A DNA stretch of 21,743 bases from a virus. The position numbers and the translations under genes were made by a program. The stretch lies in IMG/VR virus record IMGVR_UViG_3300022074_000425, positions 1 through 21,743 of that record. One strand, written 5' to 3'. Below are positions 1-19,448 of this stretch, piece by piece. Under the pieces are notes generated by a model. That model ran no database searches, was not told the origin of the DNA, and worked only from the letters and a program-made list of their open reading frames with translations. Within the stretch, counting starts at the first letter, position 1; each line of letters opens with the position of its first letter.

Positions 1-8
1 TGCAGCCT

Positions 9-1199
9 ATGCGCTCTCAGATTGCAGAGGGCAAGGTGTCTATCTATCAGTCACTCAAGGACATGCACAACGACAGGCAGATAGCTATGAAACCTGGCCG
101 TGCATTCAGCTTCATGTTCCCTGAGTTTGAGCACAAGCAGATCATCATGATGACTGATGCATACCTCAAGGAGTTTGCTGACCGTGACCTCACCTTGCAC
201 CAAGCTAAGGATGCTGAGTCATTCAAACGTGCATACTCGCATGAGCAGTCTCACAACGAGAACATCGACACCACTTGGTTTCGTAAGCATCTGGCTCACA
301 GCTGTATGCGCTACGAGTTTGATCACCTGCCTATGCACCCTGCAGAAGCCTATGCGTCTGGTGACTTCGAGATTGTGTATGCTACTGACTCTCATGGTCG
401 CATTGCTGCTCGTACTAACGTGTACTTCAAGCACCCTGACAAGCCACAGGCTTCACCTATCTACGGTGTATCAGAGCAAGCTATTGACTTTGTGTATGAT
501 CATCTGATACTACGTAATGTAGAGGTCAGAGACCCTGACTTCTCAGGTGCCAAGCTACGCAGAGTCGATCATGATGGTGGTGGCTTCATTGCACCATACC
601 TTGACCTAGCACCTCAGTCCCTCAATGACACTGGCTTATGGTTAGTGGTTACACATGGTGGTGAGATCAATGCCACTGACTATGGTGGGGTACTCAACGG
701 TCATTACACAACCTGTACTAGCTGTGGTGATGGTCTTGACGAGGATGACTACTACTACTCAGAGACTACTGATGAGCATTACTGTGAGTGTTGCTACTAC
801 AACGTCCACTTCTACTGTGAGTATGCAGGTGAGGACATTCATGAGGATGATGGTATCGTAGTATACAGAGTTATGCGTAGTGGTCAGCAGACTAACTTCA
901 GGGTATCTCGTGACTATGTACAGAACTGTGACACCTTCATCTACTGTGATGATGATGACGAGTATTGGGATGCAGATGACGTGACCTACATCGAGTGTGA
1001 GGACATCTGGGTATCACCCAATGGTATGGACGATTACTTCCTATCTGATTGGAGTGACGAGTGGTATCCCCGTACCGTGATGTGTACCCTTGACGATGGT
1101 AGTGATGTAGCTAAGTCTGAGCTAGATGAAGATGGTGGTATCTGGGAATTACAAGAAGATAACACATGGAAAAATGTACAAGGAGAATTAGATGTATAG
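9..1199 (+). CDS. Large Cys-rich acidic phage protein, possible zinc-binding
   Basis: Function not recognised. The frame is open to the left edge of the window, so the ATG at 9 may be internal and the gene 5'-partial. Counting from that ATG it has 396 residues. The N-terminal ~200 residues look globular, with a KPGRAFSFMFPE segment near residue 29 and a HPAEAYASGDFE segment near 110; my impression is that such sequence recurs in marine phage proteins of unknown function. Residues 236-270 hold CxxC (236-239), a CECC cluster (259-262) and C270, spaced like a zinc knuckle or treble clef. More Cys follow at 307, 313 and 330, separated by long Asp/Glu/Tyr runs. The C-terminal half is very acidic. 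It overlaps the next gene by 8 bp, so the two are probably co-translated. Zinc binding is an inference from Cys spacing only. Confidence 0.8.
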   Translation: MRSQIAEGKVSIYQSLKDMHNDRQIAMKPGRAFSFMFPEFEHKQIIMMTDAYLKEFADRDLTLHQAKDAESFKRAYSHEQSHNENIDTTWFRKHLAHSCMRYEFDHLPMHPAEAYASGDFEIVYATDSHGRIAARTNVYFKHPDKPQASPIYGVSEQAIDFVYDHLILRNVEVRDPDFSGAKLRRVDHDGGGFIAPYLDLAPQSLNDTGLWLVVTHGGEINATDYGGVLNGHYTTCTSCGDGLDEDDYYYSETTDEHYCECCYYNVHFYCEYAGEDIHEDDGIVVYRVMRSGQQTNFRVSRDYVQNCDTFIYCDDDDEYWDADDVTYIECEDIWVSPNGMDDYFLSDWSDEWYPRTVMCTLDDGSDVAKSELDEDGGIWELQEDNTWKNVQGELDV

Positions 1200-2148
1200 T
1201 TTGATAGAGATGCTGCGTTACATGAGGCCTGAAGCTTCGCAAGCGCAGAAAGAATTTTGTTTACGGTTCCTCGAACCTACCTTTGGGTTACCCGATATTC
1301 ACGGTAACTATGTCCACATCATTGGTGACAAGCCTCGACTATGCTTTGCGTCACACCATGATACAGTACACAAGCAGTCTGGTTATCAGAAGCTAGTGGT
1401 CATGAATGACGTGGTGTCTGTAGCTGACAGCAAGACTTCCAACTGCCTTGGTGCTGACTGTACCACTGGTGTCTGGCTCATGCTCAACATGATTGAGGCC
1501 GGCATCGAGGGTGTCTACGTAGTCCATGCAGCAGAGGAGATTGGTTGCAAGGGTAGCCGTGCATTGGTAGCTGACAACCCACCTTGGTTGAGTCATCTTG
1601 ACGCAGTGATCTCATTCGACAGATACGGTGACAACTCTGTGATCACACACCAGATGGGTATGCGTACTGCCTCTGATGAGTTCGCTAAGTCCTTCGCTGC
1701 AGCACTAGACCTACCACAACTAGAAGCTGATACGGGTGGCTCATACACAGACAGCAACGAGTACTCAGGTGTGGTCTCTGAGTGTACCAACATCAGTGTT
1801 GGTTACTATGGGCAGCATGGTGTCAACGAGACGCAAGACCTTGATTTTGCAGAGTTATTGTCTATTGCCTTGGTATCAGCTGACTGGTCTAAGCTAGTGT
1901 TTACTCGTGATCCAACTGTCTTTGAGGATGACTATGGACTCTACCCATACGGTAGTAACCGTACCTCTATTGACAGTGAGAACGTCAGTGACTTGATGAC
2001 TCTAGTACGAGACTATCCCAGTGCTGTTGCTGAGTTGCTTGACGCTTATGGCTTCACTCCATACTCGTTGATGGAGGAGTGTCACATCGAGGATACCAGT
2101 CAGTACTACACCTACCTCGATAACTATGCAGCAAGACGCTATGTGTGA
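1192..2148 (+). CDS. Zinc metallopeptidase, M20/M28/M42-like (clan MH)
   Basis: Predicted di-zinc exopeptidase (amino- or carboxypeptidase fold) of 318 residues. The full set of expected clan MH ligands can be read in order: an HxD motif in SHHDTVH (H55, D57), a bridging Asp in LGADCTTGV (D89), the catalytic/ligand Glu pair in AAEEIGCKGS (E115, E116), an Asp in SFDRYG (D143) and a late His in YGQHG (H209). Residues after ~235 form a short extra tail. There is no signal peptide, so it would act in the cytoplasm of the infected cell. An AAGGAG ribosome-binding site at 1180-1185 lies 6 nt before the ATG, inside the end of the upstream gene. Family assignment rests on motif order; M20, M28 and M42 cannot be separated by eye, and the substrate is unknown. 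It could instead act on a non-peptide amide. Confidence 0.85.
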   Translation: MYSLIEMLRYMRPEASQAQKEFCLRFLEPTFGLPDIHGNYVHIIGDKPRLCFASHHDTVHKQSGYQKLVVMNDVVSVADSKTSNCLGADCTTGVWLMLNMIEAGIEGVYVVHAAEEIGCKGSRALVADNPPWLSHLDAVISFDRYGDNSVITHQMGMRTASDEFAKSFAAALDLPQLEADTGGSYTDSNEYSGVVSECTNISVGYYGQHGVNETQDLDFAELLSIALVSADWSKLVFTRDPTVFEDDYGLYPYGSNRTSIDSENVSDLMTLVRDYPSAVAELLDAYGFTPYSLMEECHIEDTSQYYTYLDNYAARRYV

Positions 2149-2152
2149 CACG

Positions 2153-2180
2153 TTGACACAGTTGCTTGACAACCTAAAAT
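2153..2180 (+). promoter_or_regulatory. Candidate sigma70-type promoter
   Basis: TTGACA at 2153-2158, a 16-nt spacer, then TAAAAT at 2175-2180. A second TTGACA at 2166-2171 sits 16 nt before TATTTT at 2188-2193, so two overlapping start sites are possible. Both precede the palindrome array and would transcribe the recombinase and the genes after it. It is the best bacterial-type promoter I found in the + strand gene block. Recognition is by consensus only. Confidence 0.5.
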
Positions 2181-2187
2181 AAATGTG

Positions 2188-2270
2188 TATTTTAAATATA
2201 CTTAAAGTATAACTTAAAGTTTCTAACTTCTTTAAGAAGTAATTAAAAGCTTTAAGTGTACTTTAAGTAC
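2188..2270. repeat. Array of CTTWAAG-core palindromes (operator, iteron or att arm sites)
   Basis: Five copies of a CTTWAAG core occur at 2201-2207, 2213-2219, 2230-2236, 2250-2256 and 2261-2267. Four are centres of larger perfect inverted repeats with one central base: 2198-2210 (ATACTTAAAGTAT), 2211-2221 (AACTTAAAGTT), 2226-2240 (ACTTCTTTAAGAAGT) and 2258-2270 (GTACTTTAAGTAC). A degenerate sixth, TATTTTAAATA, lies at 2188-2198. Centre-to-centre distances are 11, 12, 17, 20 and 11 bp. The array lies between the candidate promoter and the recombinase ribosome-binding site, in an AT-rich non-coding stretch. Binding sites for a dimeric repressor, replication iterons or recombinase arm sites are all possible; the sequence alone does not decide. 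Confidence 0.7.
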
Positions 2271-2288
2271 GAACCTAAGGAGACTTAC

Positions 2289-2336
2289 ATGGACGATCCA
2301 CATGACGATGCCACAGGGTGGCTTGATGAGATTTAA
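2289..2336 (+). CDS. 15-residue mini-ORF before the recombinase (leader peptide candidate)
   Basis: An AAGGAG at 2277-2282 lies 6 nt before the ATG at 2289, the best-placed start signal in this region. It opens a 15-codon frame (MDDPHDDATGWLDEI) ending in TAA at 2334-2336. The recombinase runs in another frame and its ATG at 2326 lies inside the last codons of the mini-ORF, so ribosomes ending here could restart on the recombinase. This suggests translational coupling or a leader peptide. The peptide itself has no recognised function and could be only a byproduct of the start-site layout. Confidence 0.4.
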   Translation: MDDPHDDATGWLDEI

Positions 2337-3201
2337 AACAGCAGTTGAAAAATACTTGAGAACCAGACAGTTCAATTCTTTGTCGTATGCAACACAGAAA
2401 AACTATGAGTCATGCCTCAGGTCTTTCTGTCGTATGTCTTTGCTTGGCAAGACCATTGGTAACGTAACGGTCACCAACTTCACAACGATCCTCTGCACTG
2501 AGATGTATGACACATGGGAAGCTGAGTCCTCTACCTCCAATGCTAATCACAAGAGCAGGGTGTTCTCTGTGCTGATGAACTATCTGGTGTCAATGGACTT
2601 CATACCACACAACTGCATGTCCAGAGTCAGGAAGCGTACAAGCACACCACGTTCTGTGATCTGGACTCACGACCAAGTTGTATCATTCCTTGATACAGCC
2701 TTCACAAAGTTTGAGTGGCGTAACATCGGACTGATTGTTATGATGTGCTACGAGTGGGGGCAACGTCCAGTAGACATACGCAATCTCAAGTGGACTGACA
2801 TAGATGGTGCCGTGGTGACCATCACACAGTCCAAGCGTGGTGCTACCGTTGAGCTACCTGTGCCTGATAACCTGATGCCTATGCTTGAGCAACAACGTGA
2901 GGACTGGGACTTCCAAGACTACGTAGTGCCTCACCACAGGCCACAGGACAGCGCCTACAGGCCGCTAACAGTTTCTCAGATGACAGCACTGCTCAGAGAA
3001 GTTAAGGCTATTGCTGGGCTACCTGACGAGCTGCAGGTAGGTGACCTAAGGAAGACTGCTATTGTGGAGATGATTGAGGGTGGGGTTGACCACCTTGCAA
3101 TTCAATCTGTATCAGGGCATAAGAACGTGGCTAGTCTTAACCCGTACAATAAGTTTAGTTTGAACACAGCCAAAGCTGCACTTGAAAGGAGACAGCGATG
3201 A
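2326..3201 (+). CDS. int: Tyrosine recombinase / phage integrase
   Basis: Site-specific recombinase expected to join attP and attB or resolve genome multimers. Numbering from the ATG at 2326 (291 residues), an N-terminal SAM-like core-binding domain (about 1-95) with a typical TQKNYESCLRSF helix precedes the catalytic domain. Catalytic residues: Arg147 (GQRPVDIRNLKW), Lys170 (QSKRGA), Arg242 (GDLRKT), His265 (SGHKN) and the nucleophile Tyr274 (NPYNK), nine residues after the His as usual. The His of the HxxR box is replaced by Gly239. An earlier ATG at 2302 would add 8 residues but has no ribosome-binding site nearby; 2326 sits in the end of a well-initiated mini-ORF, so coupling favours it. 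The promoter and palindrome array lie directly upstream. It overlaps the next gene by ATGA. Confidence 0.9.
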   Translation: MRFKTAVEKYLRTRQFNSLSYATQKNYESCLRSFCRMSLLGKTIGNVTVTNFTTILCTEMYDTWEAESSTSNANHKSRVFSVLMNYLVSMDFIPHNCMSRVRKRTSTPRSVIWTHDQVVSFLDTAFTKFEWRNIGLIVMMCYEWGQRPVDIRNLKWTDIDGAVVTITQSKRGATVELPVPDNLMPMLEQQREDWDFQDYVVPHHRPQDSAYRPLTVSQMTALLREVKAIAGLPDELQVGDLRKTAIVEMIEGGVDHLAIQSVSGHKNVASLNPYNKFSLNTAKAALERRQR

Positions 3202-3386
3202 AAAGGAAAAGAGATATACCGCCTGAGGTATTCAGGCATTGGGCTAATTGTTTCATTGACGGTACGCTTGATGACGAGTATGCTGATGAGCTTGGAGAGA
3301 TCCTTGAGCTGCTTGCCAATAACGCAGAGTTCAATGAAGAGCTTAGGAAGAATCGTGGGGCTTGGTATGAAGGTTCCATACACTAA
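3198..3386 (+). CDS. Small hypothetical protein (62 aa)
   Basis: Unrecognised. It starts in an ATGA overlap with the recombinase stop, directly after GGAGACAGCG. It has a basic start (MKRKRDIPP), then an acidic helical body of about 45 residues ending in WYEGSIH. No membrane segment or Cys motif. It is probably translated together with the recombinase, so a small partner or regulator (for example a directionality factor) is conceivable, but nothing in the sequence proves it. Confidence 0.65.
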   Translation: MKRKRDIPPEVFRHWANCFIDGTLDDEYADELGEILELLANNAEFNEELRKNRGAWYEGSIH

Positions 3387-3501
3387 GCGTAACCCTATGG
3401 CTCAGGATCTTAGGCAACCTAAGTACAAGCAGCAGGTGATTCCTAATAAGAAGAAGCCTGTACCTAAACGTAAACAAAAACATAAAGGAGTTGAAAGCTG
3501 A
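3367..3501 (+). CDS. Small very basic phage protein (44 aa)
   Basis: The open frame extends upstream to 3256, but the start at 3367 is preferred. It follows a GTGGGG stretch, and it gives a protein whose whole length fits a pattern I associate with many T7-like marine phages: a RNPxAxxLRxxxYKxxV core followed by KK-rich and RK-rich tails (here KRNPMAQDLRQPKYKQQVIP, then KKKPVPKRKQKHK). About one third of residues are Lys or Arg, so nucleic acid binding is plausible. Function is not known. It overlaps the 3' end of the previous gene by 20 bp and the next start by one base. Confidence 0.7.
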   Translation: MKVPYTKRNPMAQDLRQPKYKQQVIPNKKKPVPKRKQKHKGVES

Positions 3502-3737
3502 TGTATTCATATCACGCAATAAACATCGACGGATCTACTACCCTTAGTCCTCAACTAAAAACTATCAAGGCTTTGCGGGAACGTTACTTCCGTCAAGGTG
3601 AGGTATTCAAAGATCACGGATCGGTATCTGAGATTGTAGTTTTTAAGGGGCGTAAGATACATGGTTACTATACCCCTGAGTTTAAGCTTGACAGCAGCAA
3701 GCCAGCTGATATACACAATATTTTTTATGGGATGTAG
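3501..3737 (+). CDS. Hypothetical protein (78 aa)
   Basis: Unrecognised soluble protein. It begins in a TGATG overlap with the preceding stop; AAAGGAG is a few bases further upstream than ideal, about 11 nt. The sequence alternates short beta-like segments (SEIVVFKGRKIHGYY) with a basic helix (LKTIKALRERYFRQGEVF). No catalytic motif, Cys pair or membrane helix is visible. It belongs to the chain of small genes between the recombinase and thyX. Confidence 0.65.
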   Translation: MYSYHAINIDGSTTLSPQLKTIKALRERYFRQGEVFKDHGSVSEIVVFKGRKIHGYYTPEFKLDSSKPADIHNIFYGM

Positions 3738-3740
3738 ATT

Positions 3741-3941
3741 ATGAAGATAACTAGAGTAAGTCCGTTTTCAAATAAGAAGACAACGCTTGAGATTGACGTG
3801 ACAGCTAGGCAAATAGCTTCATGGGAGAAGGGCGAGTTGATACAAGATGCAATGCCTAACTTGACAGCAGGTGAACGTGAGTTTATCAAGATAGGTGTTA
3901 CACCTGACGAGTGGGATGATATATTTGGAGTTGATAAATGA
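3741..3941 (+). CDS. Conserved small phage protein (66 aa), GELIQ/GVTPDEWDDIF type
   Basis: A compact protein with the pattern (T)xxIDVTxxQIxxWEKGELIQDAxPNLTAxEREFIKIGVTPDEWDDIF. From memory, very similar small proteins of unknown function recur in marine podoviruses and prophages, which supports it being a real gene; I cannot name a domain. It is acidic toward the C-terminus and has no membrane segment. It ends in an ATGA overlap with the next small gene. Confidence 0.75.
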   Translation: MKITRVSPFSNKKTTLEIDVTARQIASWEKGELIQDAMPNLTAGEREFIKIGVTPDEWDDIFGVDK

Positions 3942-4024
3942 CTGAGGCATTGACAGCACTTTGTATACTGCTATTTTTAATCCTTGGTATTGTTTTTATA
4001 ATAGTGAGTGAGGTAAATAAATGA
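3938..4024 (+). CDS. 28-aa single-pass membrane peptide
   Basis: Twenty-eight residues: a short N-terminus (MTEAL), a hydrophobic stretch of about 18 residues (TALCILLFLILGIVFIIV) and a short polar tail (SEVNK). It is locked in by stop/start overlaps on both sides: its ATG shares ATGA with the 66-aa gene's stop, and its TGA shares ATGA with the thyX start. That arrangement favours a translated gene rather than a chance frame. It probably sits in the host inner membrane. Its role is unknown; holin-like, antiholin or superinfection functions are all possible for such peptides. Confidence 0.6.
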   Translation: MTEALTALCILLFLILGIVFIIVSEVNK

Positions 4025-4743
4025 TTGAAGTAACACACGTAGATCACATGGGCAAAGACTTGAGCGTTGCTAATGCAGCACGAGTAAGCTTTGGCAAGAA
4101 GAGTGATCTGGATTGGAGTGACCCTTGGAGTCCACCCAAGTTGAGGGAGAAGGATGCCAAGCTGATACGCTACCTTGCTAAGAATGAACACATCAGCCCC
4201 TTTGGGCATTGCTTTGCAAGCTTCCACGTCAAAGCACCTGTGTTTGTAGCACGTCAGCTTGTCAAGCATAAGTTCTTACGGTGGAATGAGATCAGCCGTA
4301 GGTATGTGGACAATGAGCCTGAGTTTTTTATTCCTGTCGATTGGAGAGAAAAATCAGATGATAAAAAACAGGGTAGTGGTACTGGTTTTGTCAATGAACT
4401 GCCTCAAGATGACTCTGAAGACTATGCATCTGACAAAGGTTACTTGGTGGATCATTGGACTACAAATACAACCCGTTACGTAGAGGATAACATATACTAC
4501 CCTGCCCTGCATACTTATAGAGAGATGTTAGATGCAGGTGTATGCCCAGAGCAAGCACGTATGGTACTGCCACAGTCTATGATGACTGAGTGGTACTGGT
4601 CAGGTAGCTTAGATGCATTTGCTGACATGTGTAACCTACGCTGTAAGCCTGACACACAAGCTGAGACAAGGTTTGTGGCTGATGCTATCTCTGAGGAGAT
4701 GGAGAAACTATTCCCTGTGTCATGGGAAGCTTTATTGTCATGA
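4021..4743 (+). CDS. thyX: Flavin-dependent thymidylate synthase ThyX
   Basis: Makes dTMP from dUMP with methylene-tetrahydrofolate, FAD and NADPH, feeding phage DNA synthesis. The 240 residues match ThyX length and motifs. The signature RHR(x7)S region reads KHKFLRWNEISRRYV (residues 82-96): spacing to Ser92 is exact, but both arginines of RHR are lysines. Other supports are AARVSFGK at the N-terminus, HxSPFGHxxASFHVKAPVFVARQ (about 57-79), EQARMVLP with Arg180, and the C-terminal LRCKPDTQAETR, which resembles the LR..AQ.EIR of the family. Lys-for-Arg changes in this motif appear familiar from cyanophage ThyX, but that is from memory. The start at 4021 uses a GAGG ribosome-binding site and an ATGA overlap; the stop overlaps the next gene in the same way. 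Confidence 0.95.
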   Translation: MIEVTHVDHMGKDLSVANAARVSFGKKSDLDWSDPWSPPKLREKDAKLIRYLAKNEHISPFGHCFASFHVKAPVFVARQLVKHKFLRWNEISRRYVDNEPEFFIPVDWREKSDDKKQGSGTGFVNELPQDDSEDYASDKGYLVDHWTTNTTRYVEDNIYYPALHTYREMLDAGVCPEQARMVLPQSMMTEWYWSGSLDAFADMCNLRCKPDTQAETRFVADAISEEMEKLFPVSWEALLS

Positions 4744-4889
4744 CAGTAGTAGAGTTTATACCCTATATTATAACACTGTCTATCATGATTATCAGTATAG
4801 CTTTTATACCGTGCTGGGTAATATTTTTAATAGTAAGGAAAATTAATGCAAGAAAATACAGACAGAGCAATCAAAAAGGAGAAAGATGA
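4740..4889 (+). CDS. 49-aa small membrane protein
   Basis: Begins in an ATGA overlap with the thyX stop. Residues 5-32 are almost entirely hydrophobic (FIPYIITLSIMIISIAFIP, then CWVIFLIV). This is enough for one long transmembrane helix or a tight hairpin, since a proline sits in the middle. A strongly basic tail follows (RKINARKYRQ...), so by the positive-inside rule the C-terminus should be cytoplasmic. The size and layout fit a small holin or other inner-membrane peptide, but nothing proves this. A 16-codon frame at 4845-4895 with its own weak AAGGAA lies across its 3' part and could compete. Confidence 0.6.
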   Translation: MTVVEFIPYIITLSIMIISIAFIPCWVIFLIVRKINARKYRQSNQKGER

Positions 4890-5017
4890 TGATTGAAGTA
4901 ATTGGAATTGCAATTTTATCTGGTATAATTGGTATGATGCTTGGCTTGAAGATAGGTTGGCGTGATGCCAAGCGCCTCTATGATCCCTACCTACCAGGAT
5001 ATAAAGATGGCAGGTAA
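4886..5017 (+). CDS. 43-aa membrane-anchored small protein
   Basis: The start ATG at 4886 (or the adjacent ATG at 4889) follows AAAAAGGAGAAAG, a strong ribosome-binding site. An N-terminal hydrophobic segment (residues 4-22, VIGIAILSGIIGMMLGLKI) with glycine spacing is followed by a polar tail, GWRDAKRLYDPYLPGYKDGR. This is a single-pass protein with its tail probably in the cytoplasm. Function unknown. It overlaps the preceding small gene by ATGA and the next one by about 11 bp. Confidence 0.65.
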   Translation: MMIEVIGIAILSGIIGMMLGLKIGWRDAKRLYDPYLPGYKDGR

Positions 5018-5168
5018 TATCAACGGTGCAATCAAGGCGTCAGCTATAGTAGCATTTATAATAGCAGGTCTACCAATACTGGTTGCTATGACGTATGATG
5101 AGTTTCCACGCTATTGTAAACAGACAATACTGCTGCCATGTATAGGGGTGAGTGATGAAGATGAATGA
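5007..5168 (+). CDS. 53-aa single-pass membrane protein
   Basis: The ATG at 5007 is chosen because an AGGA lies about 8 nt upstream and it gives a short hydrophilic start before the membrane helix; the open frame itself continues upstream. A hydrophobic helix at about residues 9-27 (KASAIVAFIIAGLPILVAMT) is followed by a soluble tail with two Cys and an acidic end (GVSDEDE). Fourth in a run of tiny membrane proteins around thyX. Function unknown. Confidence 0.6.
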   Translation: MAGNINGAIKASAIVAFIIAGLPILVAMTYDEFPRYCKQTILLPCIGVSDEDE

Positions 5169-5331
5169 TGTAAAAATAATAAGCATAGAAGATCACGAGG
5201 ATGGCAGTGCTACGCTACAAGTAGAGTGTGATCCAGAAACTTTTATGGCTATCTTTAACGTAGGGTTTGTAGCCTTAGTCAAAGCTGGCTTAGAATCAGA
5301 AAGGAGTGAAGATGTACGCAGTGGAGATTGA
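5155..5331 (+). CDS. Conserved small phage protein (58 aa), EDHEDGSATLQVECDP type
   Basis: Starts at ATG 5155, or 5161 two codons later; GGGGTGAG lies about 6 nt upstream of the first. The sequence VKIISIEDHEDGSATLQVECDPETFMAIFNVGFVALVKAGL fits a pattern I recall from small uncharacterised proteins of marine podoviruses: a short beta-hairpin-like half followed by one helix. Soluble, acidic, no catalytic motif. Its 3' end overlaps the next gene by 20 bp. Confidence 0.65.
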   Translation: MKMNDVKIISIEDHEDGSATLQVECDPETFMAIFNVGFVALVKAGLESERSEDVRSGD

Positions 5332-5527
5332 GGTTGAGAAGGGTGAGTACACCCTAGTACGAAAAGAAAACCCTTGGACCTACGATACAGAGGTGCGAAC
5401 CTTTGAGACCAAGGAGCAAGCAGAGGCAGAAGCTGCAAGATGGAACACGGGGCGTGTAATTAACTATTTACATTACATCCGACCTATGACAAAAGAGGAG
5501 CGTGAAAGAGCAAAGCATGTCCGATAA
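5312..5527 (+). CDS. Hypothetical protein (71 aa)
   Basis: The ATG at 5312 is preferred over an in-frame GTG at 5306 because AAGGAG at 5301-5306 gives a 5-nt spacing. It is a soluble, highly charged protein with a beta-rich N-terminal half (MYAVEIEVEKGEYTLV) and a helix rich in Glu/Ala (KEQAEAEAARWNTGRV), ending in MTKEERERAKHVR. No enzymatic motif. It overlaps the start of the primase-helicase gene by 11 bp, so it is probably translated with the replication genes. Function unknown. Confidence 0.7.
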   Translation: MYAVEIEVEKGEYTLVRKENPWTYDTEVRTFETKEQAEAEAARWNTGRVINYLHYIRPMTKEERERAKHVR

Positions 5528-7118
5528 TCCACACTTAGCTTGTCCTTATACAGATTGTGGGTCAAGCGATGCATTCAATTGGAATGATGATGGCTATGGT
5601 CACTGTCATTCTTGTGGTAACGCATATCCATCTAGAGATATGTCAGAAACATTTGATTGGGTGAAGGCTGAATACCCTTTACCAGAAAGGAGAAAACCTA
5701 TGGAAATACCAGTGACGGGTATGACCTATCAGAACATCAGGGGTATTGATGCTGATGTCTGTGAGTTGTACGGTATCCAGTTGCAGACTGGTGAAGGTGG
5801 TGAACCTGTACGTTATGCGTACAAGTATCCACACACAGTCAAATACAGGCTGCACAGTGACAAGTCTAAGTCTTGGGTTAAGGATCGTGGGCTGGGTATG
5901 AACCACCTGTTTGGCCCTGACTTCAATGCTGGCACAAGCCAGCGGATCTACTTGACTGAGGGTGAGTTCGATGCAGCCAGTCTGTATCAGATCCTTGGCA
6001 AGACATTCCCTGTGAAGTCACTACCCTCTGCATCTATTGGCGAGAAGTTCATTAAGCACAATCACGCTTATCTGTCGTCATTCAGGGAGATCATCTATGC
6101 AGGTGAGCTTGATGCAGCTGGACGTACTGCTGCTGACAAGTTGTACCAAGCCTTCCCTGAGAAGTTCTGGTATGTGCCTATGACCAAGCACAAGGATGCC
6201 AATGACTTCTTGCAAGCAGGTGATGGTCAAGACTTGATGTGGTCTGCAAAGAAACCTCAACGGTATTCACCTGAAAACTTTTTCTGCTCTGATCAAGATG
6301 TAGAAGATGCAATCCTGAACGAGAATCCCTACGAGTATGTACCGACAGGTCACACTGGTCTTGATGATAAGATCCGTGGGATGGTCAAGGGTGGTATCAC
6401 CTTTATCAAAGCCCCAAGGGGTACTGGTAAGACTGAGGTGATCAGGTTCTTTGAGACTGGTCTCTTACGTGATGAAGAGAGCCGCATAGCTTTACTCCAC
6501 ATGGAAGAGATGAAGTCTACCACCTACCGTTCAATGGCTACCTATCAACTAGGTGTCAATGTCCGAACCAAGGATGATGCCAGAGAGAATGGTGTCTCTG
6601 AGGCAGCTGTGATTCAAGCAGCTAAGGACATGTCTCAGGGTGAACGTACCATTATCTTTGAGATGATGTCACACGATGACCCACTAAAGTTGCTTGACTA
6701 CATACGTCTTGCAGCTACAGTCTATGGTGCTGGCTTCATCTTTATTGATCACGTTCAGCGTCTAGCCTACCTGTCTAGCTCTGGTGTTGATGGTGCTACC
6801 AGTACACTGACCACACTAGGTTCTCGTGCAGCACAGTTAGCTAAGGAGTTGAACATCGGTGTGATCTTTATATCACAGGTCAATGATGATGGTAGAACAA
6901 AGTATGCCGCATCACTTGAAGAAGAAGCAATTATCTGTGTTAAGATCGAGCGTGATGTTGAGACAGACGATGAGATTCTTCAGAACACCACCAACTTTGT
7001 TGTTGACAAGAACAGACCGTTTGCTAAGTTGGGCCATGCTGGTTCAGTCTACTATGATCCAGAGACTACGATACTTAGTGAAGAGACACCGTTTATAAGG
7101 AGTGACCTAGCAGCATGA
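5517..7118 (+). CDS. T7 gp4-like bifunctional DNA primase-helicase
   Basis: Primes lagging-strand synthesis and unwinds DNA at the fork as a hexamer. Numbered from ATG 5517 (533 aa), there is an N-terminal zinc-binding domain with Cys9, Cys14, Cys30 and Cys33 (pattern C-x4-C-x15-C-x2-C). A Toprim primase core follows, with LTEGEFDA (Glu148, Asp152) and AGELDAAG (Asp199). A RecA-like DnaB/gp4 helicase domain then carries Walker A APRGTGKT (299-306, Lys305), Walker B FIFID (Asp411) and a FISQVNDDGRTKYA segment near 451-464. Length is close to T7 gp4 (566 aa). An in-frame GTG at 5502 exists, but AAAGAG 6 nt before ATG 5517 favours the latter. It overlaps the polymerase gene by ATGA, giving coupled synthesis of the two fork enzymes. 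Confidence 0.95.
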   Translation: MSDNPHLACPYTDCGSSDAFNWNDDGYGHCHSCGNAYPSRDMSETFDWVKAEYPLPERRKPMEIPVTGMTYQNIRGIDADVCELYGIQLQTGEGGEPVRYAYKYPHTVKYRLHSDKSKSWVKDRGLGMNHLFGPDFNAGTSQRIYLTEGEFDAASLYQILGKTFPVKSLPSASIGEKFIKHNHAYLSSFREIIYAGELDAAGRTAADKLYQAFPEKFWYVPMTKHKDANDFLQAGDGQDLMWSAKKPQRYSPENFFCSDQDVEDAILNENPYEYVPTGHTGLDDKIRGMVKGGITFIKAPRGTGKTEVIRFFETGLLRDEESRIALLHMEEMKSTTYRSMATYQLGVNVRTKDDARENGVSEAAVIQAAKDMSQGERTIIFEMMSHDDPLKLLDYIRLAATVYGAGFIFIDHVQRLAYLSSSGVDGATSTLTTLGSRAAQLAKELNIGVIFISQVNDDGRTKYAASLEEEAIICVKIERDVETDDEILQNTTNFVVDKNRPFAKLGHAGSVYYDPETTILSEETPFIRSDLAA

Positions 7119-8968
7119 TTGTATTTGATGTAGAAGCTGACAACCTCTTGGATGATGCTACTAAAATACATTGCTTATCTTACACATCTGATGGGGTTAA
7201 TTACGACACCTTGTTTGACTATAACGACATGCGTGACTTGGTTATGAGTCAAGCAGGTTTGATTGGTCACAACATTGTGCGGTATGATGCACCTTTACTT
7301 GAGAAGATATTGGGCATCAAGCTTGAGGCTAGATTGTTCGACACCCTACCTATGTCTTGGGTGCTGAACTATACTCGTGCTGGTAACAAGCATAAACTTG
7401 AGGCTTTTGGTGAAGACTTTGGTGTACCTAAACCTAAGATCAATGACTGGGTTAATCTCACTCAAGAAGAGTATGCTCACCGTTGTGTTGAAGATGTCAA
7501 GATAAACTGGTTGCTTTGGCAAGACTTACTCAAGCGATTCATGATCATCTACCAGAAAGACAAGGTGCTGTTGAATAAGTTCTTCCGCTACCTTGAGTTC
7601 AAGATGCGATGCGCAGCTGTAGCTGAGACTGTTGGTTGGAAGCTTGATCTAGACTTGGCTGTCAAGTGTATTGATGACTTGACTCAGCAGCAGATCAATA
7701 AGGTGGCAGAGCTTAAGACTGTGATGCCAATGGTTGCTAAGACTCAGGTAAAGCGTAAGCCTAAGAATTGCTTTAAGCAAGATGGTTCTCCATCTGCTCA
7801 TGGTGAGAAATGGTTTGCATTGCTTGATGAAAACAACCTACCAAGACATCATGACGAGGGTGTGCTTGTCCTCAAGGGTTATGATGAGCCTAACCCCAAC
7901 TCCCCGCCCCAAGTAAAAGACTGGCTGTTCTCTTTGGGTTGGGTACCTTGTACTTTTAAGTATGAGAAAGAAGATGATGGTACTGAAAGAACTATACCTC
8001 AAATCCGTAAAGAAGGTGAGCTTACTGACTCAGTACGTTTACTTGTTGAAGATAATCCTACGGTAGAAGTTCTTGAGGGTCTTACTGTCATTCAACACAG
8101 ACTTAAAATCTTTGAGGGATTTGTTGAGTGTGAGCGTAATGGTTATGTGAAGGCAGAGATTGATGGACTCACTAATACACTACGTTTCAAGCACAAGAAA
8201 CCTCTTGTCAACTTGCCTGGGGTGGACAGACCTTGGGGTAAGGAGATCCGTGGGTGCCTCACTGCACCTCAGGGTTACGTACTGTGTGGTGCTGATATGA
8301 CCTCTCTTGAGGACACATGCAAGCGTCACTACATGCACCCTTACGATCCAGACTATGTTCTTGAAATGTCAGAGGATGGGTTTGACCCACACCTTGACTT
8401 AGCTAAACATGCAGGAGCTGTATCACAGGATGACATCGACGCTTACAATCAAGGCAACAAGCCTGAGCTTAAAGCCTTGCGTAAGAACTACAAGGTAGTC
8501 AACTATTCTGCTACCTATGGTGTTGGTGCTGCTAAACTATCACGTACTACTGGTCTACCTGCTAATGAGTGTCAGGCTTTGCTTGAGGCTTATTGGGATC
8601 GTAACTGGTCAGTCAAGAAGTTTGCAGAGTCTCAACACATACGTAAACTAAATGGTGAGATGTGGGTACAAAACCCTGTCAGTAAGTTTTGGCACAGCTT
8701 ACGCTACGAGAAGGATGTGTTCTCTACACTCAACCAATCAACTGGTGCTTACTGCTTTGACAAGTGGGTTGCCTACTACCGTACACGTAGAGGTAATATC
8801 ATCGGGCAGTTCCATGACGAATCAATCAACTTAGTGAAAGAAGGAGATCAAGATGTTCACAGTAATACTTTGACTTGGGCTATTGAAAAACTTAATAAAG
8901 AACTTAAATTAAATGTTGACTTAGGTATAGACATACAATACGGTCAACGATATAGTGATGTACACTAA
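7115..8968 (+). CDS. Family A (T7/Pol I-like) DNA polymerase with 3'-5' exonuclease
   Basis: Replicative polymerase, 617 aa. Exonuclease domain: FDVEAD (Asp5, Glu7), GHNIVRYD (Asn53, Asp58) and RCVEDVK (Asp127). The usual Tyr four residues before that last Asp is Arg123 here. Polymerase domain: motif A GADMTSLE (Asp394, Glu399), O-helix motif B RKNYKVVNYSATYG (Arg456, Lys460, Tyr464) and motif C FHDES (His567, Asp568, Glu569). Tyr464 occupies the position of E. coli Phe762/T7 Tyr526, a T7-like state that in known enzymes lowers discrimination against dideoxynucleotides and in viral surveys is associated with lytic phages. Residues about 205-335 form a poorly conserved middle region without a CxxCxGxG zinc finger. 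No 5'-3' exonuclease domain. The ATGA overlap with the helicase-primase supports joint expression. Confidence 0.95.
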   Translation: MIVFDVEADNLLDDATKIHCLSYTSDGVNYDTLFDYNDMRDLVMSQAGLIGHNIVRYDAPLLEKILGIKLEARLFDTLPMSWVLNYTRAGNKHKLEAFGEDFGVPKPKINDWVNLTQEEYAHRCVEDVKINWLLWQDLLKRFMIIYQKDKVLLNKFFRYLEFKMRCAAVAETVGWKLDLDLAVKCIDDLTQQQINKVAELKTVMPMVAKTQVKRKPKNCFKQDGSPSAHGEKWFALLDENNLPRHHDEGVLVLKGYDEPNPNSPPQVKDWLFSLGWVPCTFKYEKEDDGTERTIPQIRKEGELTDSVRLLVEDNPTVEVLEGLTVIQHRLKIFEGFVECERNGYVKAEIDGLTNTLRFKHKKPLVNLPGVDRPWGKEIRGCLTAPQGYVLCGADMTSLEDTCKRHYMHPYDPDYVLEMSEDGFDPHLDLAKHAGAVSQDDIDAYNQGNKPELKALRKNYKVVNYSATYGVGAAKLSRTTGLPANECQALLEAYWDRNWSVKKFAESQHIRKLNGEMWVQNPVSKFWHSLRYEKDVFSTLNQSTGAYCFDKWVAYYRTRRGNIIGQFHDESINLVKEGDQDVHSNTLTWAIEKLNKELKLNVDLGIDIQYGQRYSDVH

Positions 8969-8985
8969 ACTTATAGGAGGGCCGA

Positions 8986-9498
8986 ATGGCTACACGTAAA
9001 GTAAAACTAACTGGTACTGCAGAGTGGGCAAAAGTATTCCCACAGAACCGTGACTTGCTAGGCTTTGATGGAGCTTATCAAGACTGTGATGGTGCTTGCA
9101 CTATTGATGTCATCTTGGATGACGAGAATATGTCTAAGTTAACAGCCACAGGTTCAATGAAACGAGGTACAGATGATCCAGAAGGACGAGGTAAAAAGGT
9201 ACGCCTCGTGCGTAAGTACAACACTGGCCGTGATTGGGACAGTGGGGCGCCTATTGTTACAAAGTCTGATGGTACTCCTTGGGATTACGATCTTGATGGT
9301 ACCATTGGTAATGGATCTACTGTAGAGGTACTCCTCTCAGTCTACGATACACGTATGAAAAGTATTGTAGGTACACGACTTGACAAGGTTACTGTCATTG
9401 ATCATGTAGAATACATCTCACCACAGGACGATGACAGCCCTTCCCCTGTCTTAGAGAAGCCTGTAGTAGCAGCTACCGAAGACTCAGTACTGTTCTAG
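8986..9498 (+). CDS. Single-stranded DNA-binding protein, gp2.5-like
   Basis: 170 aa, with an excellent AGGAGG ribosome-binding site before the ATG. Position right after the polymerase, beta-rich OB-fold-like composition, a basic/aromatic central part (GKKVRLVRKYNTGRDW) and an acidic C-terminal tail ending in a terminal Phe (ATEDSVLF) are all characteristic of T7 gp2.5-type SSBs. In those proteins the acidic tail and last Phe contact polymerase and helicase. Expected to coat single strands at the fork and promote annealing. Overall sequence identity to T7 gp2.5 is not obvious, so the call rests on tail, size and context. A hairpin follows the stop codon. Confidence 0.8.
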   Translation: MATRKVKLTGTAEWAKVFPQNRDLLGFDGAYQDCDGACTIDVILDDENMSKLTATGSMKRGTDDPEGRGKKVRLVRKYNTGRDWDSGAPIVTKSDGTPWDYDLDGTIGNGSTVEVLLSVYDTRMKSIVGTRLDKVTVIDHVEYISPQDDDSPSPVLEKPVVAATEDSVLF

Positions 9499-9510
9499 GG
9501 ATGTAACTTA

Positions 9511-9548
9511 GGGGGTGGTTGGTTTCCTTTCCTTTCCCTTCCACCCCC
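9511..9548 (+). terminator. GC hairpin with pyrimidine loop (partial terminator or mRNA processing site)
   Basis: GGGGGTGG at 9511-9518 pairs perfectly with CCACCCCC at 9541-9548, enclosing a 22-nt loop made largely of CTTT/CCTT runs. It fills almost the whole gap between the SSB and exonuclease genes. There is no U-tract after it; instead AAGGAG of the next gene begins at 9554. It is therefore more likely an attenuator, an mRNA-stabilising 3' end for the SSB message or a processing signal than a full intrinsic terminator. Confidence 0.5.
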
Positions 9549-9564
9549 AACTTAAGGAGTGACT

Positions 9565-10419
9565 ATGAAAAATATACAGACATTGGTAGACGATCTGTAC
9601 CAAGTGATACAAGGCCAAGGTGGTTGGACTAAAAGCATTAGCTCCCAGATGGGTAAAGCTATTGCTGACACTGCCAACAAAAGGTTTTCTAAACCACAGG
9701 AGCCACGGGGTTATCTATCTTTATCTTCTATTGGAACTCCTTGTAAGCGTAAGCTATGGTATAAAATTAATAAGTCTGGTGAAGGTGAGCAGCTAGAGTC
9801 CAACACCTTACTCAAGTTCTTCTATGGCGACATGATCGAAGAGCTTATCCTAAGCATGACGTTAGCAGCTGGACACGATATGCAAGGGTCACAGGATAGG
9901 TTAGACGTTCATGGTATCAAGGGGCATAGAGATGCAGTCATTGATGGTATGACTGTTGATGTAAAGTCTTGTAGCTCCTATGCATTCAAGAAGTTCAAAG
10001 AGGGGAACCTACGTGATGATGACCCGTTTGGTTATATATCTCAGCTTAGTTCTTATGTTTATGCAGGTAAGGATGACCCACTTGTTACTGACAAGACTCA
10101 TGGTGCTTTTCTTGCTATTGATAAGCAGAATGGACATATTTGTTTGGATGTTTATGATTTCACTGAAGAACTAAAAACAAAAGAGTTTGAAATGAAAGAG
10201 GCTGTGGCTATGATTAAGGGTAAGATACCTGAGGATCGTATTAAGCCAGTACCTCAGTCAAAGACTAGCCCTAACATGAAACTGTCTATGGCTTGTAGTT
10301 ATTGTGAATACAAGAAGCTATGCTGGCCTAACATGCGTAAGTTTGTTTACAGCTATGGCCCAGAGTTCCTTGTTCATGTTGAGAAAGAACCAAGGGTTGC
10401 GGAGACAGTAGATGACTAG
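9565..10419 (+). CDS. PD-(D/E)XK exonuclease with Fe-S cluster (Cas4/RecB-like)
   Basis: 284 aa from ATG 9565 (AAGGAG at 9554-9559; an in-frame GTG at 9559 is less well placed). Core nuclease residues: a GHRDAVID segment with Asp123, TVDVKS with Asp132 and Lys134, and QLSSYVYAG with Gln160 as the RecB-type QxxxY. Four Cys sit where Cas4, AddB and Dna2-type nucleases bind a 4Fe-4S cluster: Cys60 in IGTPCKRKLWYK, and Cys244, Cys247, Cys253 in CSYCEYKKLC. In T7-like phages the gene at this place is the 5'-3' exonuclease (gp6 role) that degrades host DNA and removes primers; this protein probably replaces it. The family call is firm; polarity and the Fe-S cluster are inference. Confidence 0.88.
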   Translation: MKNIQTLVDDLYQVIQGQGGWTKSISSQMGKAIADTANKRFSKPQEPRGYLSLSSIGTPCKRKLWYKINKSGEGEQLESNTLLKFFYGDMIEELILSMTLAAGHDMQGSQDRLDVHGIKGHRDAVIDGMTVDVKSCSSYAFKKFKEGNLRDDDPFGYISQLSSYVYAGKDDPLVTDKTHGAFLAIDKQNGHICLDVYDFTEELKTKEFEMKEAVAMIKGKIPEDRIKPVPQSKTSPNMKLSMACSYCEYKKLCWPNMRKFVYSYGPEFLVHVEKEPRVAETVDD

Positions 10420-10756
10420 ACAAGCCAAGCAGAAAGGCCGCTTGGGTCAGCAAGAGATTAGAGATAGGTTACTTGAAGCCTTCCCTGAGTTTGAGCCAGA
10501 TGATATTAAGTCTACTACGATGGGGGAATCAGGGGCTGACATCCAGCTATCTCCTGCAGCTAGAAAAAAGTTACCTCTATCTGTCGAGGTGAAGAGACGG
10601 AAAGCAGAACTTAAAACTGTTTATCGTTTTATGGAACAAGCCTCTAGACATTCAGAGCATGAGCCTGTAGTGTTCTTTAGATCAGACAGAAAACCGTGGG
10701 TAGTAATGGTTGGTCTTGATCACTACATAGACTTATTAAGGAATTGGAAAACATGA
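10412..10756 (+). CDS. Hjc/VRR-like PD-(D/E)XK endonuclease, putative Holliday junction resolvase
   Basis: 114 aa, overlapping the exonuclease gene by 8 bp. Possible active site: Glu15 in the first helix (KGRLGQQEIRDRLL), Asp43 in ESGADIQLSP, and Glu59-x-Lys61 in SVEVKRRK, followed by a helix beginning ELKTVYRFMEQA. The length and the E...D...ExK layout fit small archaeal-type resolvases and phage endonuclease I equivalents. It would resolve branched replication and recombination intermediates before packaging. Residue assignment is by motif spacing only; a VRR-NUC-type enzyme with another specificity is the main alternative. Confidence 0.72.
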   Translation: MTRQAKQKGRLGQQEIRDRLLEAFPEFEPDDIKSTTMGESGADIQLSPAARKKLPLSVEVKRRKAELKTVYRFMEQASRHSEHEPVVFFRSDRKPWVVMVGLDHYIDLLRNWKT

Positions 10757-10980
10757 CAGTAAAAATATGGGACATATCAGTAGGGCCAATATCAGTAGAC
10801 GAAGCGCCTGATGATGAAGACTTCCCAGAAGGTTGTAATTATTTTGTCGTCTGTAAAGCAGAGATAGATGGTGAGATGGAAGAAGTAAACTTTTGGTTTG
10901 AAGACCTTGCGCAGATACATGAATGGCAGAAACATTTTAGGACCAGTATCCAGCCGCTTGAAATAGACGAAGAACACTAG
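10753..10980 (+). CDS. Acidic hypothetical protein (75 aa)
   Basis: The start at 10753 is chosen because it forms an ATGA overlap with the resolvase stop; an upstream in-frame TTG at 10744 is unlikely. The product is strongly acidic (about one quarter Asp/Glu), with a beta-rich middle (NYFVVCKAEIDGEMEEVNFWF) and an ending LEIDEEH. No recognised family. It lies between two nuclease-like genes and may be a partner or DNA mimic, but there is no direct sign of this. Confidence 0.65.
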   Translation: MTVKIWDISVGPISVDEAPDDEDFPEGCNYFVVCKAEIDGEMEEVNFWFEDLAQIHEWQKHFRTSIQPLEIDEEH

Positions 10981-10990
10981 GAGAATAAAC

Positions 10991-11455
10991 ATGGCCGTTA
11001 GAAAACCTTTTGAACCACACTTGTATGATCGCTTTGACAACCCTGCTAAGGTAAAACTAATTAAAATCCTACAGCATCAGGGTCATGAGATCTCTTCTGT
11101 AAAGGAGAACTACTATGCTGATGTAGAGTCAACCCGAAAGGGTATCACCTACTATAGTGAAGCAGAAGTTAAGCGAGGTTGGTCTGAAGACTGGCCTGAG
11201 GATTGGACTGAGATTAGAATCCCAGAGCGTAAGACACGGCTACTTAAGAAGTATGATCACAACGTAAACTTCTTTGTGTTCAATAATGACCTAACTGCTT
11301 GTTGGAAGATACGAGGATCTCAGATGACTAATGATACTATCCGTGAGGCTAAGGGTAGATACATCATGAAGGGTGAAAAGTTCTTCCACATACCCTACAA
11401 AGAAGCTGAACTAGTGACATTAAATAGCTTGACCAACAGTCAAGAATCTGTATAA
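10991..11455 (+). CDS. Putative PD-(D/E)XK-like nuclease-fold protein (154 aa)
   Basis: AGGAGAATAAAC places a ribosome-binding site before the ATG. A candidate restriction-endonuclease-like core is visible: Tyr-Tyr-Ala-Asp44-Val-Glu, a beta-hairpin ending in Ser-Glu-Ala-Glu59-Val-Lys61, then WPEDWTEIRIPERKTRLL, followed by VNFFVFNNDLTACWKI. The D...ExK spacing (about 15 residues) is compatible with catalysis. I think I recall similar proteins in other phages without a proven function. Its place behind two clear nucleases suggests DNA processing. Assignment is tentative; it could be a catalytically inert structural relative. Confidence 0.6.
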   Translation: MAVRKPFEPHLYDRFDNPAKVKLIKILQHQGHEISSVKENYYADVESTRKGITYYSEAEVKRGWSEDWPEDWTEIRIPERKTRLLKKYDHNVNFFVFNNDLTACWKIRGSQMTNDTIREAKGRYIMKGEKFFHIPYKEAELVTLNSLTNSQESV

Positions 11456-11469
11456 CTAGGGGTTTCCAA

Positions 11470-11631
11470 ATGAACTACGAAGTCCACCTAGCAATACTCG
11501 TAGATAAAGATGCTAATTTCCTGGAGATTTCTGGGGATAACTGTGGAGTACTAAAAGAGATAATTGAAGATGCTCTGTACGACATAGACGATGTAACCGT
11601 AACCCAATGTGAGGTAAATAAATATGACTAA
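11470..11631 (+). CDS. Small hypothetical protein (53 aa)
   Basis: Starts after an AGGGGTTTCCAA stretch. The product MNYEVHLAILVDKDANFLEI... is a small soluble alpha/beta protein with an acidic second half (EIIEDALYDIDDVTVTQCEV). The pattern of beta strand, helix, beta strand suggests a compact ferredoxin-like fold, without any functional motif. Its last codons contain the ribosome-binding site of the next gene, and the two frames overlap by 8 bp. Confidence 0.6.
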   Translation: MNYEVHLAILVDKDANFLEISGDNCGVLKEIIEDALYDIDDVTVTQCEVNKYD

Positions 11632-11830
11632 ACTAACTCTTGACGAAAACGAATATGAGATTGATGACATGACTGATGAGCAGAAAGAGATTCTAAACAT
11701 CTTGAATGTAGGCTCCAATGCTTCAGCACTACTAAATCACATCACTCAGTGTGTCACTGCTATTCAGCAGATAAAGACTAATGAATTGAAACAGTCATTG
11801 GAAGGTAGTGAGGATGATCAATCGGAGTGA
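11624..11830 (+). CDS. DUF6447-like small phage protein (68 aa)
   Basis: Acidic, helical protein beginning MTKLTLDENEYEIDDMTDEQ, followed by a long amphipathic helix (LLNHITQCVTAIQQIKTNELKQ). The opening, a short beta-hairpin with an xLxExEYxIDDMxxEQ pattern and then one helix, resembles phage proteins grouped as DUF6447; that naming is from memory and unproven. Function unknown. It is translated from a GAGGTAAATAA leader identical to that of thyX. It overlaps the mazG start by 17 bp. Confidence 0.6.
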   Translation: MTKLTLDENEYEIDDMTDEQKEILNILNVGSNASALLNHITQCVTAIQQIKTNELKQSLEGSEDDQSE

Positions 11831-12200
11831 TCTAGAAGCGTTTGGCTATTTTGATATGTTTCAGAATAGTCCAGACTATGAAGAAGATCCTGTCCGTTTT
11901 TATAGCCAGTTTGTAGAGGACAAAGTATTAACTAAAGGACGTGAACGTCTAGTAGAAAATACTTTGGGCCTCTCTGGTGAAGCAGGTGAGGTATCTGAAA
12001 AAGTAAAGAAACTCTTTCGGGATAAAGATAAGTTCAAGGATGAAGATATTCTGAAAGAGTTAGGTGATGTGTTGTTTTATACAGTAGCCTTAGCAAACAT
12101 CTTCGGGGGTAACCTACGTAAGGTTATGGAGATGAACATGGCAAAGCTAGATGACAGAGAGCAACGTGGTGTACTAAAGGGAAGCGGAGATAATAGATGA
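11814..12200 (+). CDS. mazG: MazG-like nucleoside triphosphate pyrophosphohydrolase
   Basis: 128 aa from ATG 11814 (an in-frame GTG lies at 11808). The MazG metal site is present: Glu56 and Glu59 in LSGEAGEVSEKVKK and Glu82 and Asp85 in ILKELGDVLFYTVALA, the E-x2-E...E-x2-D arrangement of all-alpha NTP pyrophosphatases. It hydrolyses NTPs or dNTPs to the monophosphate. In marine phages it is thought to tune nucleotide pools or alarmone levels. Its ATGA overlap with the ribonucleotide reductase gene supports a nucleotide-supply role. The first ~45 residues are an extension without clear motifs. Confidence 0.88.
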   Translation: MINRSDLEAFGYFDMFQNSPDYEEDPVRFYSQFVEDKVLTKGRERLVENTLGLSGEAGEVSEKVKKLFRDKDKFKDEDILKELGDVLFYTVALANIFGGNLRKVMEMNMAKLDDREQRGVLKGSGDNR

Positions 12201-14146: not shown

Positions 14147-14156
14147 GAGAAATAAA

Positions 14157-14345
14157 ATGTATGTTCTAGTGCTTATAATGTTCTTTGAAGATAGGTATAA
14201 ACTACAAAGTCACGATACGTTCTTCCCAAGCCAAGTTGCTTGTCATCAGTTTGCAACCCCACTTAAAAAAAGACTTATGGACACTAGACCTTCACCTAAC
14301 TCTGATGTAAAATACTATTGTTTTGAAATCCCTAAAGAGGTTTAA
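14157..14345 (+). CDS. Small hypothetical protein (62 aa)
   Basis: AGGAGAAATAAA precedes the ATG. The start MYVLVLIMFFEDRYK is hydrophobic and could be a beta strand or a short membrane segment; the rest is soluble, with HDTFFPSQVACHQFATPLKKRL in the middle and VKYYCFEIPKEV at the end. Two Cys flank the helix. I have an impression of similar strand-helix-strand small proteins in other phages, without known function. It abuts the DUF3310 gene directly. Confidence 0.6.
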   Translation: MYVLVLIMFFEDRYKLQSHDTFFPSQVACHQFATPLKKRLMDTRPSPNSDVKYYCFEIPKEV

Positions 14346-14579
14346 ATGAAATACGATCCAGTAAACAGCCCAGCACATTACAAGTTAAGTGGTGGTATAG
14401 AGTGCATTGATTATATTAAACAGGTGCTAACCCTTGATCAGTTCATTGGTTATTGCCACGGTAATATGATCAAGTATCAACACAGGTACATGTACAAGGG
14501 TAACCCTGTTCAGGATATGGAGAAAGCAGAATGGTATCTAAATAAAATGTTAGAGGCAATGGAGGAAATGCACAAATGA
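14346..14579 (+). CDS. DUF3310 protein (77 aa)
   Basis: Matches the DUF3310 pattern over its length: NSPAHYKLSGGIECIDYI, GYCHGNMIKYQHRY, then MYKGNPVQDMEKAEWYLNKM. The conserved PxHY, GNxxKYxxRY and DxxKAxWYL elements are all present. The family is widespread in phages and in T7-like genomes is sometimes labelled a nucleotide kinase, but its biochemical role is not settled. It starts one base after the previous stop, with AAAGAGG upstream, and ends in an ATGA overlap with the next gene. Confidence 0.85.
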   Translation: MKYDPVNSPAHYKLSGGIECIDYIKQVLTLDQFIGYCHGNMIKYQHRYMYKGNPVQDMEKAEWYLNKMLEAMEEMHK

Positions 14580-14743
14580 AACCATACGAAGAAGGTATAA
14601 AGGCTTTTAGAGAGGGCAACTTAGGTAACCCTCATAAGCTAAATACTAAGCAGGGCAGGGAGTGGGAGATGGGCTTTAACAAAGCTTACTTCCGTAACCT
14701 TGAAAGGGTTAAGTTGAATGAACAAAAACAAAAAGAGTCTTGA
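14576..14743 (+). CDS. Rmf/CrpP-like small protein (55 aa)
   Basis: A 55-aa basic protein starting in an ATGA overlap with the DUF3310 stop. The pattern YEEGIKAFREGNLGNPHKLN then REWEMGFNKAYF resembles the Rmf/CrpP fold: a first helix with GxxAFxxG, an NPH/NPY turn, then W-x2-GF in a second helix. Rmf dimerises and inactivates ribosomes in gamma-proteobacteria, and CrpP-like proteins were reported with other roles. Here it could modulate host ribosomes or simply share the small helical fold. The similarity is by pattern only. Confidence 0.65.
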   Translation: MKPYEEGIKAFREGNLGNPHKLNTKQGREWEMGFNKAYFRNLERVKLNEQKQKES

Positions 14744-14939
14744 AGAAGAGGCCAAAAGTTACAGGCAGAAAAAGATAAAGCCACCGCTGAAAAACAAAGC
14801 ACTTACTTCTCGTAGGTACTTAGCTGGTCAAGCGATGGCTGCGTTGTTATCAAGATCTCCAGGTCACATACACAGAGGAGATATAAAACGTGAGTCATAT
14901 GATTGGGCTGACTTCATGTTAGAGGATGATGATGAATAA
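14718..14939 (+). CDS. Conserved small phage protein (73 aa)
   Basis: Basic N-terminal 30 residues (MNKNKKSLEEEAKSYRQKKI...), then a compact helical part SRRYLAGQAMAALLSRSPGH, and an acidic C-terminus (DWADFMLEDDDE). The RYLAGQAMAALL core with a later YDWADxM seems to me to recur in phage small proteins of unknown role. It overlaps the previous gene by 26 bp and is the last + strand gene; a terminator hairpin begins three bases after its stop. DNA or protein binding is possible, not shown. Confidence 0.7.
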   Translation: MNKNKKSLEEEAKSYRQKKIKPPLKNKALTSRRYLAGQAMAALLSRSPGHIHRGDIKRESYDWADFMLEDDDE

Positions 14940-14942
14940 CAA

Positions 14943-14966: not shown

Positions 14967-14970
14967 AAGT

Positions 14971-18450: not shown

Positions 18451-18452
18451 TA

Positions 18453-19445: not shown

Positions 19446-19448
19446 ATC

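Follow-up and report, generated by a model that had tools for sequence, protein, structure and literature searches.

The window, a 21,743-bp virus record analysed over its whole length, carries a dense array of palindromes (array 1) directly upstream of its integrase gene, and comparison with related phages demonstrates that such arrays are real, conserved, and paired, lie at inferred promoter starts, and occur independently of the integrase. In our reading, array 1 is probably an operator-like element, paired with a second array (array 2) and recognized by a putative dimeric regulator, that controls the rightward promoter, which would serve the integrase, thyX, and replication genes. Protein binding, repression, and the identity of the protein are what we infer. 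Paired phage operators are of a known kind, and the present one is a variant through its layout and the absence of a recognisable regulator.

The record represents a mosaic marine phage with CRP-6-like replication genes and an HMO-2011-type structural arm. Its DNA polymerase is nearest to that of CRP-6 (53%), and its minus-strand proteins, for example the one encoded at 19452-19973, match HMO-2011, CRP-2, and CRP-9, so that the window can be assigned to a mosaic phage of the CRP-9/CRP-13 kind. HMO-2011 and the Roseobacter phages CRP-207, CRP-2, CRP-603, CRP-1, and CRP-345 have integrases that share 34-41% identity with that of the window. CRP-9 and CRP-13 have been described as mosaic phages (PMC8528129), and HMO-2011-type genomes as having divergent arms, mosaic modules, and an integrase in some members only (PMC9038755, with CRP-9 and CRP-13 in PMC8528129). 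These are phages of the kind studied here, and a word search of both papers found no mention of promoters, intergenic elements, or a regulatory array. In the annotated isolate genomes, the rightward replication arm and the leftward structural arm converge, and the arms of the window do so near 14.95 kb. The window contig extends only 2.2 kb beyond array 1 on the upstream side and stops before its second array.

HMO-2011-type phages have been reported to dominate and to be widespread in the ocean; little is known about if and by what means they decide between lysis and lysogeny. A conserved paired promoter element offers a concrete handle on gene control in members with and without an integrase, and two promoters, their sites, and one candidate protein can now be named for cultured roseophages.

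Palindromes and promoter upstream of the integrase gene

The initial annotation had described a dense cluster of CTTWAAG palindromes before the integrase gene, and the coordinates and spacings that it gave (11, 12, 17, 20, and 11 bp) are correct. Cores start at 2201, 2213, 2230, 2250, and 2261, and a scan across the 21.7-kb window located just four more. The five cores fall in a 92-bp segment in which a mean of 0.12 is expected, and none of 20,000 dinucleotide shuffles reached five, which places the cluster far above a composition-matched expectation. Perfect palindromes of odd length are centred at 2193 (with a degenerate TTTTAAA core), 2204, 2216, 2233, and 2264; those with arms of at least 5 number five, against about 0.5 expected from dinucleotide shuffles (p ~1e-4). 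The annotation had overlooked the promoter, the inverted repeat that spans the cluster, and array 2. The elements of the array 1 region are the following:

2144..2159, plus strand: imperfect dyad TGTGACACGTTGACAC, covering the end of the preceding peptidase gene, just before the promoter
2166..2193, plus strand: sigma70-type promoter, TTGACA (2166-2171), 16 bp, TATTTT (2188-2193)
2199..2269, plus strand: array 1 as a whole, hairpin-forming, a 71-nt imperfect inverted repeat with 31 pairs that begins at the inferred start
2197..2211, plus strand: site 1, TATACTTAAAGTATA, core ACTTAAAGT at 2200-2208, covering the inferred +1
2211..2221, plus strand: site 2, AACTTAAAGTT, core at 2212-2220, 12 bp from site 1
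2226..2240, plus strand: ACTTCTTTAAGAAGT, the lineage-specific tip of the inverted repeat, with CTTTAAG present by sequence only
2249..2257, plus strand: site 3, GCTTTAAGT, with a degenerate half-site; its hairpin partner is site 2
2258..2270, plus strand: site 4, GTACTTTAAGTAC, core at 2260-2268, 11 bp from site 3
2277..2282, plus strand: AAGGAG ribosome-binding site, directly behind array 1
2289..2336, plus strand: 15-codon leader ORF, MDDPHDDATGWLDEI followed by a stop, overlapping the integrase start; many relatives have a similar leader
2326..3201, plus strand: tyrosine integrase, 291 aa, the first large gene of the operon under array 1

The copy at 2230 is the tip of a long inverted repeat (ACTTC-TTTAA-GAAGT) and not a tandem copy of the site, and the tip sequence differs in most relatives. 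The unit that recurs is ACT-N(2-3)-AGT, of which each arm of the repeat holds two copies.

The first site follows the TATTTT -10 element by 6 bp, and transcription would start near 2200, as judged from the promoter sequence. A promoter with the first site near its -10 element was found in 35 of 39 array-1 regions and in 1.4% of shuffles, the array-1 loci, like those of array 2, being related sequences and not independent ones. The first site lies -1 to 6 nt past the -10 element in 34 of these 39 regions and 14 nt past it in one more. Because it stands so close to the -10 element, the first palindrome covers the inferred start, a position more in keeping with a repressor or a roadblock than with an activator. 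The elongation roadblock described for the Kpn2I C protein (PMC6237814) likewise involves a protein site past the start that can block transcription, as we propose here; there, unlike in the present case, a known protein serves the control of restriction-modification.

Upstream of the -35 element, a dyad of the type TGTGACA-n3-TGTCACA was matched in 15 of 39 array-1 regions, and the dyad at 2144-2159 is possibly the site of a second regulator. Downstream, an alternative integrase start at 2302 is probably not used, since similarity to relatives begins at 2326, and the overlap of the leader ORF with the integrase start suggests translational coupling. The counterpart of the leader in relatives is MDDPHDDCTHWIGKI; it has been lost in a few (L034, L076). 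A complete tRNA-Arg(TCT) gene lies between the array and the integrase gene in many relatives (for example, L013, L015, and L021), is absent from the window, and is truncated in L063. It also accompanies the array-1 operon in CRP-9 and CRP-13, where an integrase homologue is lacking; such genes lie, for instance, at L220:6146-6222 and L221:3978-4054.

Conservation and the second array

Relatives of the integrase are encoded at 80 IMG/VR loci, and array 1 lies directly upstream of the gene in nearly all relatives with an integrase identity of at least 62%. In their common layout, two pairs of palindromes are separated by a centre of about 25-40 bp, the members of the first pair standing 10-12 bp apart. 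The core variants seen in relatives are ACTTWAAGT, ACTTAAGT, CCTTAAGG, and ACTATAAGT. When spacers were restricted to A/T, ACT-N3-AGT proved the commonest of all 64 half-site palindromes in the array-1 regions, with 70 copies in 7.4 kb.

Since the array adjoins the integrase gene in this clade and has a symmetric layout of two sites, a centre, and two sites, it might be taken for an attP with arm-type or core binding sites of the integrase, and recombinase arm sites had indeed been suggested. The position upstream of the integrase holds in this clade, but the array is not a feature of the integrase. CRP-9 and CRP-13 carry array 1 (5189-5260 and 3430-3524, respectively) before another gene; sequence comparison found no integrase match in either, and integrase annotation is absent from positions 1-50,000 and the end of CRP-9 and from positions 1-20,000 and the end of CRP-13. 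In L131, too, a promoter and two sites precede another gene. A matching array stands at the lysis/structural promoter 6-7 kb away, and the 291-aa integrase has no recognisable N-terminal arm-binding domain; its match to phrog_1 begins at profile position 164, and the catalytic domain occupies residues 122-284 of the 299-aa ORF. We regard an attP as largely refuted and extremely improbable. In a search for integrated relatives with att junctions, no close prophage was detected among genome contigs. An 86-kb IMG/VR contig (G015; L107, L117-L119) was rejected as a prophage: it joins two related strains, with 84% identical segments 57.9 kb apart, and is a chimera with a 57.9-kb unit, not one genome.

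In a scan of whole records, the second array was found 6-7 kb upstream in most of 15 relatives. It sits in a divergent region before a leftward gene for an 84-aa protein that heads the lysis/structural arm (minus strand, L102:3779-4030; homologues in L140-L219), and the array-2 promoter of these relatives faces the opposite way to that of array 1. Perfect or near-perfect sigma70 promoters, such as TTGACA-N17-TATAAT, run into array 2, and in L103, L105, and L127 the promoter of the 84-aa gene itself has a site overlapping its -10 region. Across 64 non-redundant loci, ACTTWAAGT occurs 137 times upstream of the 84-aa gene, against 1.7 expected. CRP-9 and CRP-13 also possess array 2 before this gene, with genome-specific variants in both arrays, and array 2 is retained in divergent relatives with 53-58% integrase identity.

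An AT-rich array next to replication genes, with a skew minimum close to array 2 (in L102 the minimum is at 4506 and array 2 at 4113), could also be a replication origin or a set of initiator iterons, another suggestion of the initial annotation. We consider this very unlikely. The GC skew has no turn at array 1 (in the window, its minimum is at 631 and its maximum at 14959), skew turns fall at transcription switches, the turn near array 2 being a transcription divide as well, and the sites are palindromes at promoter starts, with two arrays per genome. To the right of array 2, about 1.2-1.4 kb are apparently non-coding in L102 (4200-5480) and L100 (3421-4900), the latter stretch packed with CTATCCYTTNGGATAG-like repeats; these stretches are possibly an origin or an RNA.

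The type of site, ACTNNNAGT or ACTNNAGT, matches between both arrays of a genome. Exact ACTWWWAGT was present in both arrays or in neither, with complete agreement in 20 two-array genomes, which belong to few lineages only. In the six even-spaced genomes (G001, G012, G014, G017, G018, and G026), which are even in both arrays, array 1 lacks sites with a 3-bp spacer, and array 2 holds no more than a single loose match to such a site. Because site type agrees between distant arrays of the same genome, the sequences suggest that one trans-acting protein may read both.

This protein could be a global regulator of the host whose sites were adopted by the phage; the sites are conserved in phages, and the phage ligand is a candidate only. 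We judge this quite unlikely, as spacing and core vary between phages and agree within a genome, and CtrA-type TTAA direct repeats do not match the variants of CRP-9. CRP-9 and CRP-13 share a host strain (Rhodobacteraceae FZCC0023) and differ in their site variants, which favours a phage-encoded protein over a host protein.

Complementarity between the halves of array 1

The RNA of the window at 2198-2280 folds into a single hairpin (-27.3 kcal/mol, z -6.3), and the array-1 regions of relatives fold likewise, with z below -3 in 18 of 23 non-redundant leaders. When left and right halves were swapped between 21 lineages and folding was re-optimised, native arrays reached -23.1 kcal/mol and chimeras -14.7 kcal/mol, a mean cost of 8.4 kcal/mol (p = 2e-5). 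For 22 central segments that contain no sites, the values were -4.7 and -2.1 (p = 1e-5); a slight bias may persist in both comparisons from the way in which the hairpin centre was chosen. Since native pairing beats the chimeras, the halves of array 1 are matched within each lineage. These tests replaced counts of arm compensation at half-sites, in which 29 arm-only cases stood against a single palindrome-only case; such counts are biased because the alignment was picked for arm complementarity.

A plain operator model leaves this lineage-specific complementarity unexplained. It would be accounted for if the element acted mainly as RNA: the transcript would begin with a long AU-rich 5' hairpin, which could lend stability to the mRNA, serve as an RNase III-type processing site, or control access to the ribosome-binding site directly behind it. 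The folding energies, the advantage of native arms even in the site-free centre, and the 29 G.T against 8 A.C mismatches counted for the coding strand of array 1 point in this direction; we hold the RNA reading to be unlikely. Against it, array 2 shows no strand bias (37 G.T, 43 A.C) and is weakly structured, with z below -3 in only 14 of 35 loci, so that a universal long hairpin at array 2 was rejected; the energy advantage of the sense strand in array 1 falls short of significance (p = 0.06). Moreover, a hairpin alone does not need conserved tandem ACT-AGT palindromes in each arm, and template-switch correction of imperfect palindromes could yield complementary arms. Replication slippage that perfects palindromes could likewise be a source of the matched halves.

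The candidate regulator and comparison with known systems

The earlier proposal of a dimeric regulator gains support, at the level of sequence, from the constant half-sites, the helical spacing, the placement at the start site, the second array, and the shared site type. In the operator model that we prefer, a dimeric DNA-binding protein, encoded by the phage or, less likely, by the host, would recognize ACT-N(2-3)-AGT palindromes, two of which, 11-12 bp apart, would flank a variable centre on each side, the first overlapping the sigma70 start. With a matching array at the leftward lysis/structural promoter, a single protein would govern the two main transcripts through the arrays at the rightward and leftward promoters; the simplest mechanism would be a block of initiation or of early elongation. 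The array-1 hairpin would then serve a second function in the mRNA leader or have arisen incidentally as palindromes were corrected in the course of replication.

By position and presence alone, the 84-aa protein is the leading candidate for this regulator. Among the proteins encoded in the compared segments, it is the only one present in 29 of 29 genomes, and it is encoded in at least 591 IMG/VR stretches confirmed by tblastn. The protein contains the near-invariant stretch HIPRSDVFYVRE, and its structural model is helical with a mean pLDDT of 87, compared with 66-75 for the other four models. The start codon follows a -10-like TATAAC by 2-7 nt in many relatives, so the mRNA may be leaderless. 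Sequence searches for the 84-aa protein found no PDB match, no library family match, and no recognised DNA-binding fold; a fold search gave no PDB match with an E value below 0.7, the best VIA-align Z being 2.7. No residue of the protein clearly tracks odd or even sites, and the differences seen are those between lineages. The protein is also present in HMO-2011, CRP-2, and CRP-207, in which ACT-AGT arrays are weak or absent. A helix-turn-helix gene between the arrays of L102 was considered as a repressor and rejected, as it is found in few genomes.

A dual element, in which the sites would be operators for a new regulator family represented by the 84-aa protein and would also form the transcript hairpin, thus controlling transcription and mRNA fate of both main transcripts, is a speculative extension to which we assign a low probability. 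If it were true, one sequence would govern both processes in an abundant group of marine phages.

In lambda, the paired operators OL and OR are bound by the lysogeny repressor at sites between the -35 and -10 elements. The arrays resemble OL/OR in that two clusters of tandem palindromes lie at two outward-facing promoters that start the main transcripts, and in that a site may overlap the regulator-side promoter, as in some relatives here. Unlike in lambda, the sites described here extend from +1 downstream, are 11-12 bp apart, and form an overall inverted repeat, the regulator is a candidate only, and the leftward transcript is that of the lysis/structural arm. The Rco conjugation switch of plasmid pLS20 (PMC4207663) likewise has its regulator sites clustered at divergent promoters, and it involves DNA looping and a known repressor; those promoters overlap, whereas the arrays here are kilobases apart. 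At a genome position similar to that of array 2, the divergent region of CRP-6 (L222:44500-44800) contains many GTTGCARRAATGTCAC-like repeats, which belong to another repeat family.
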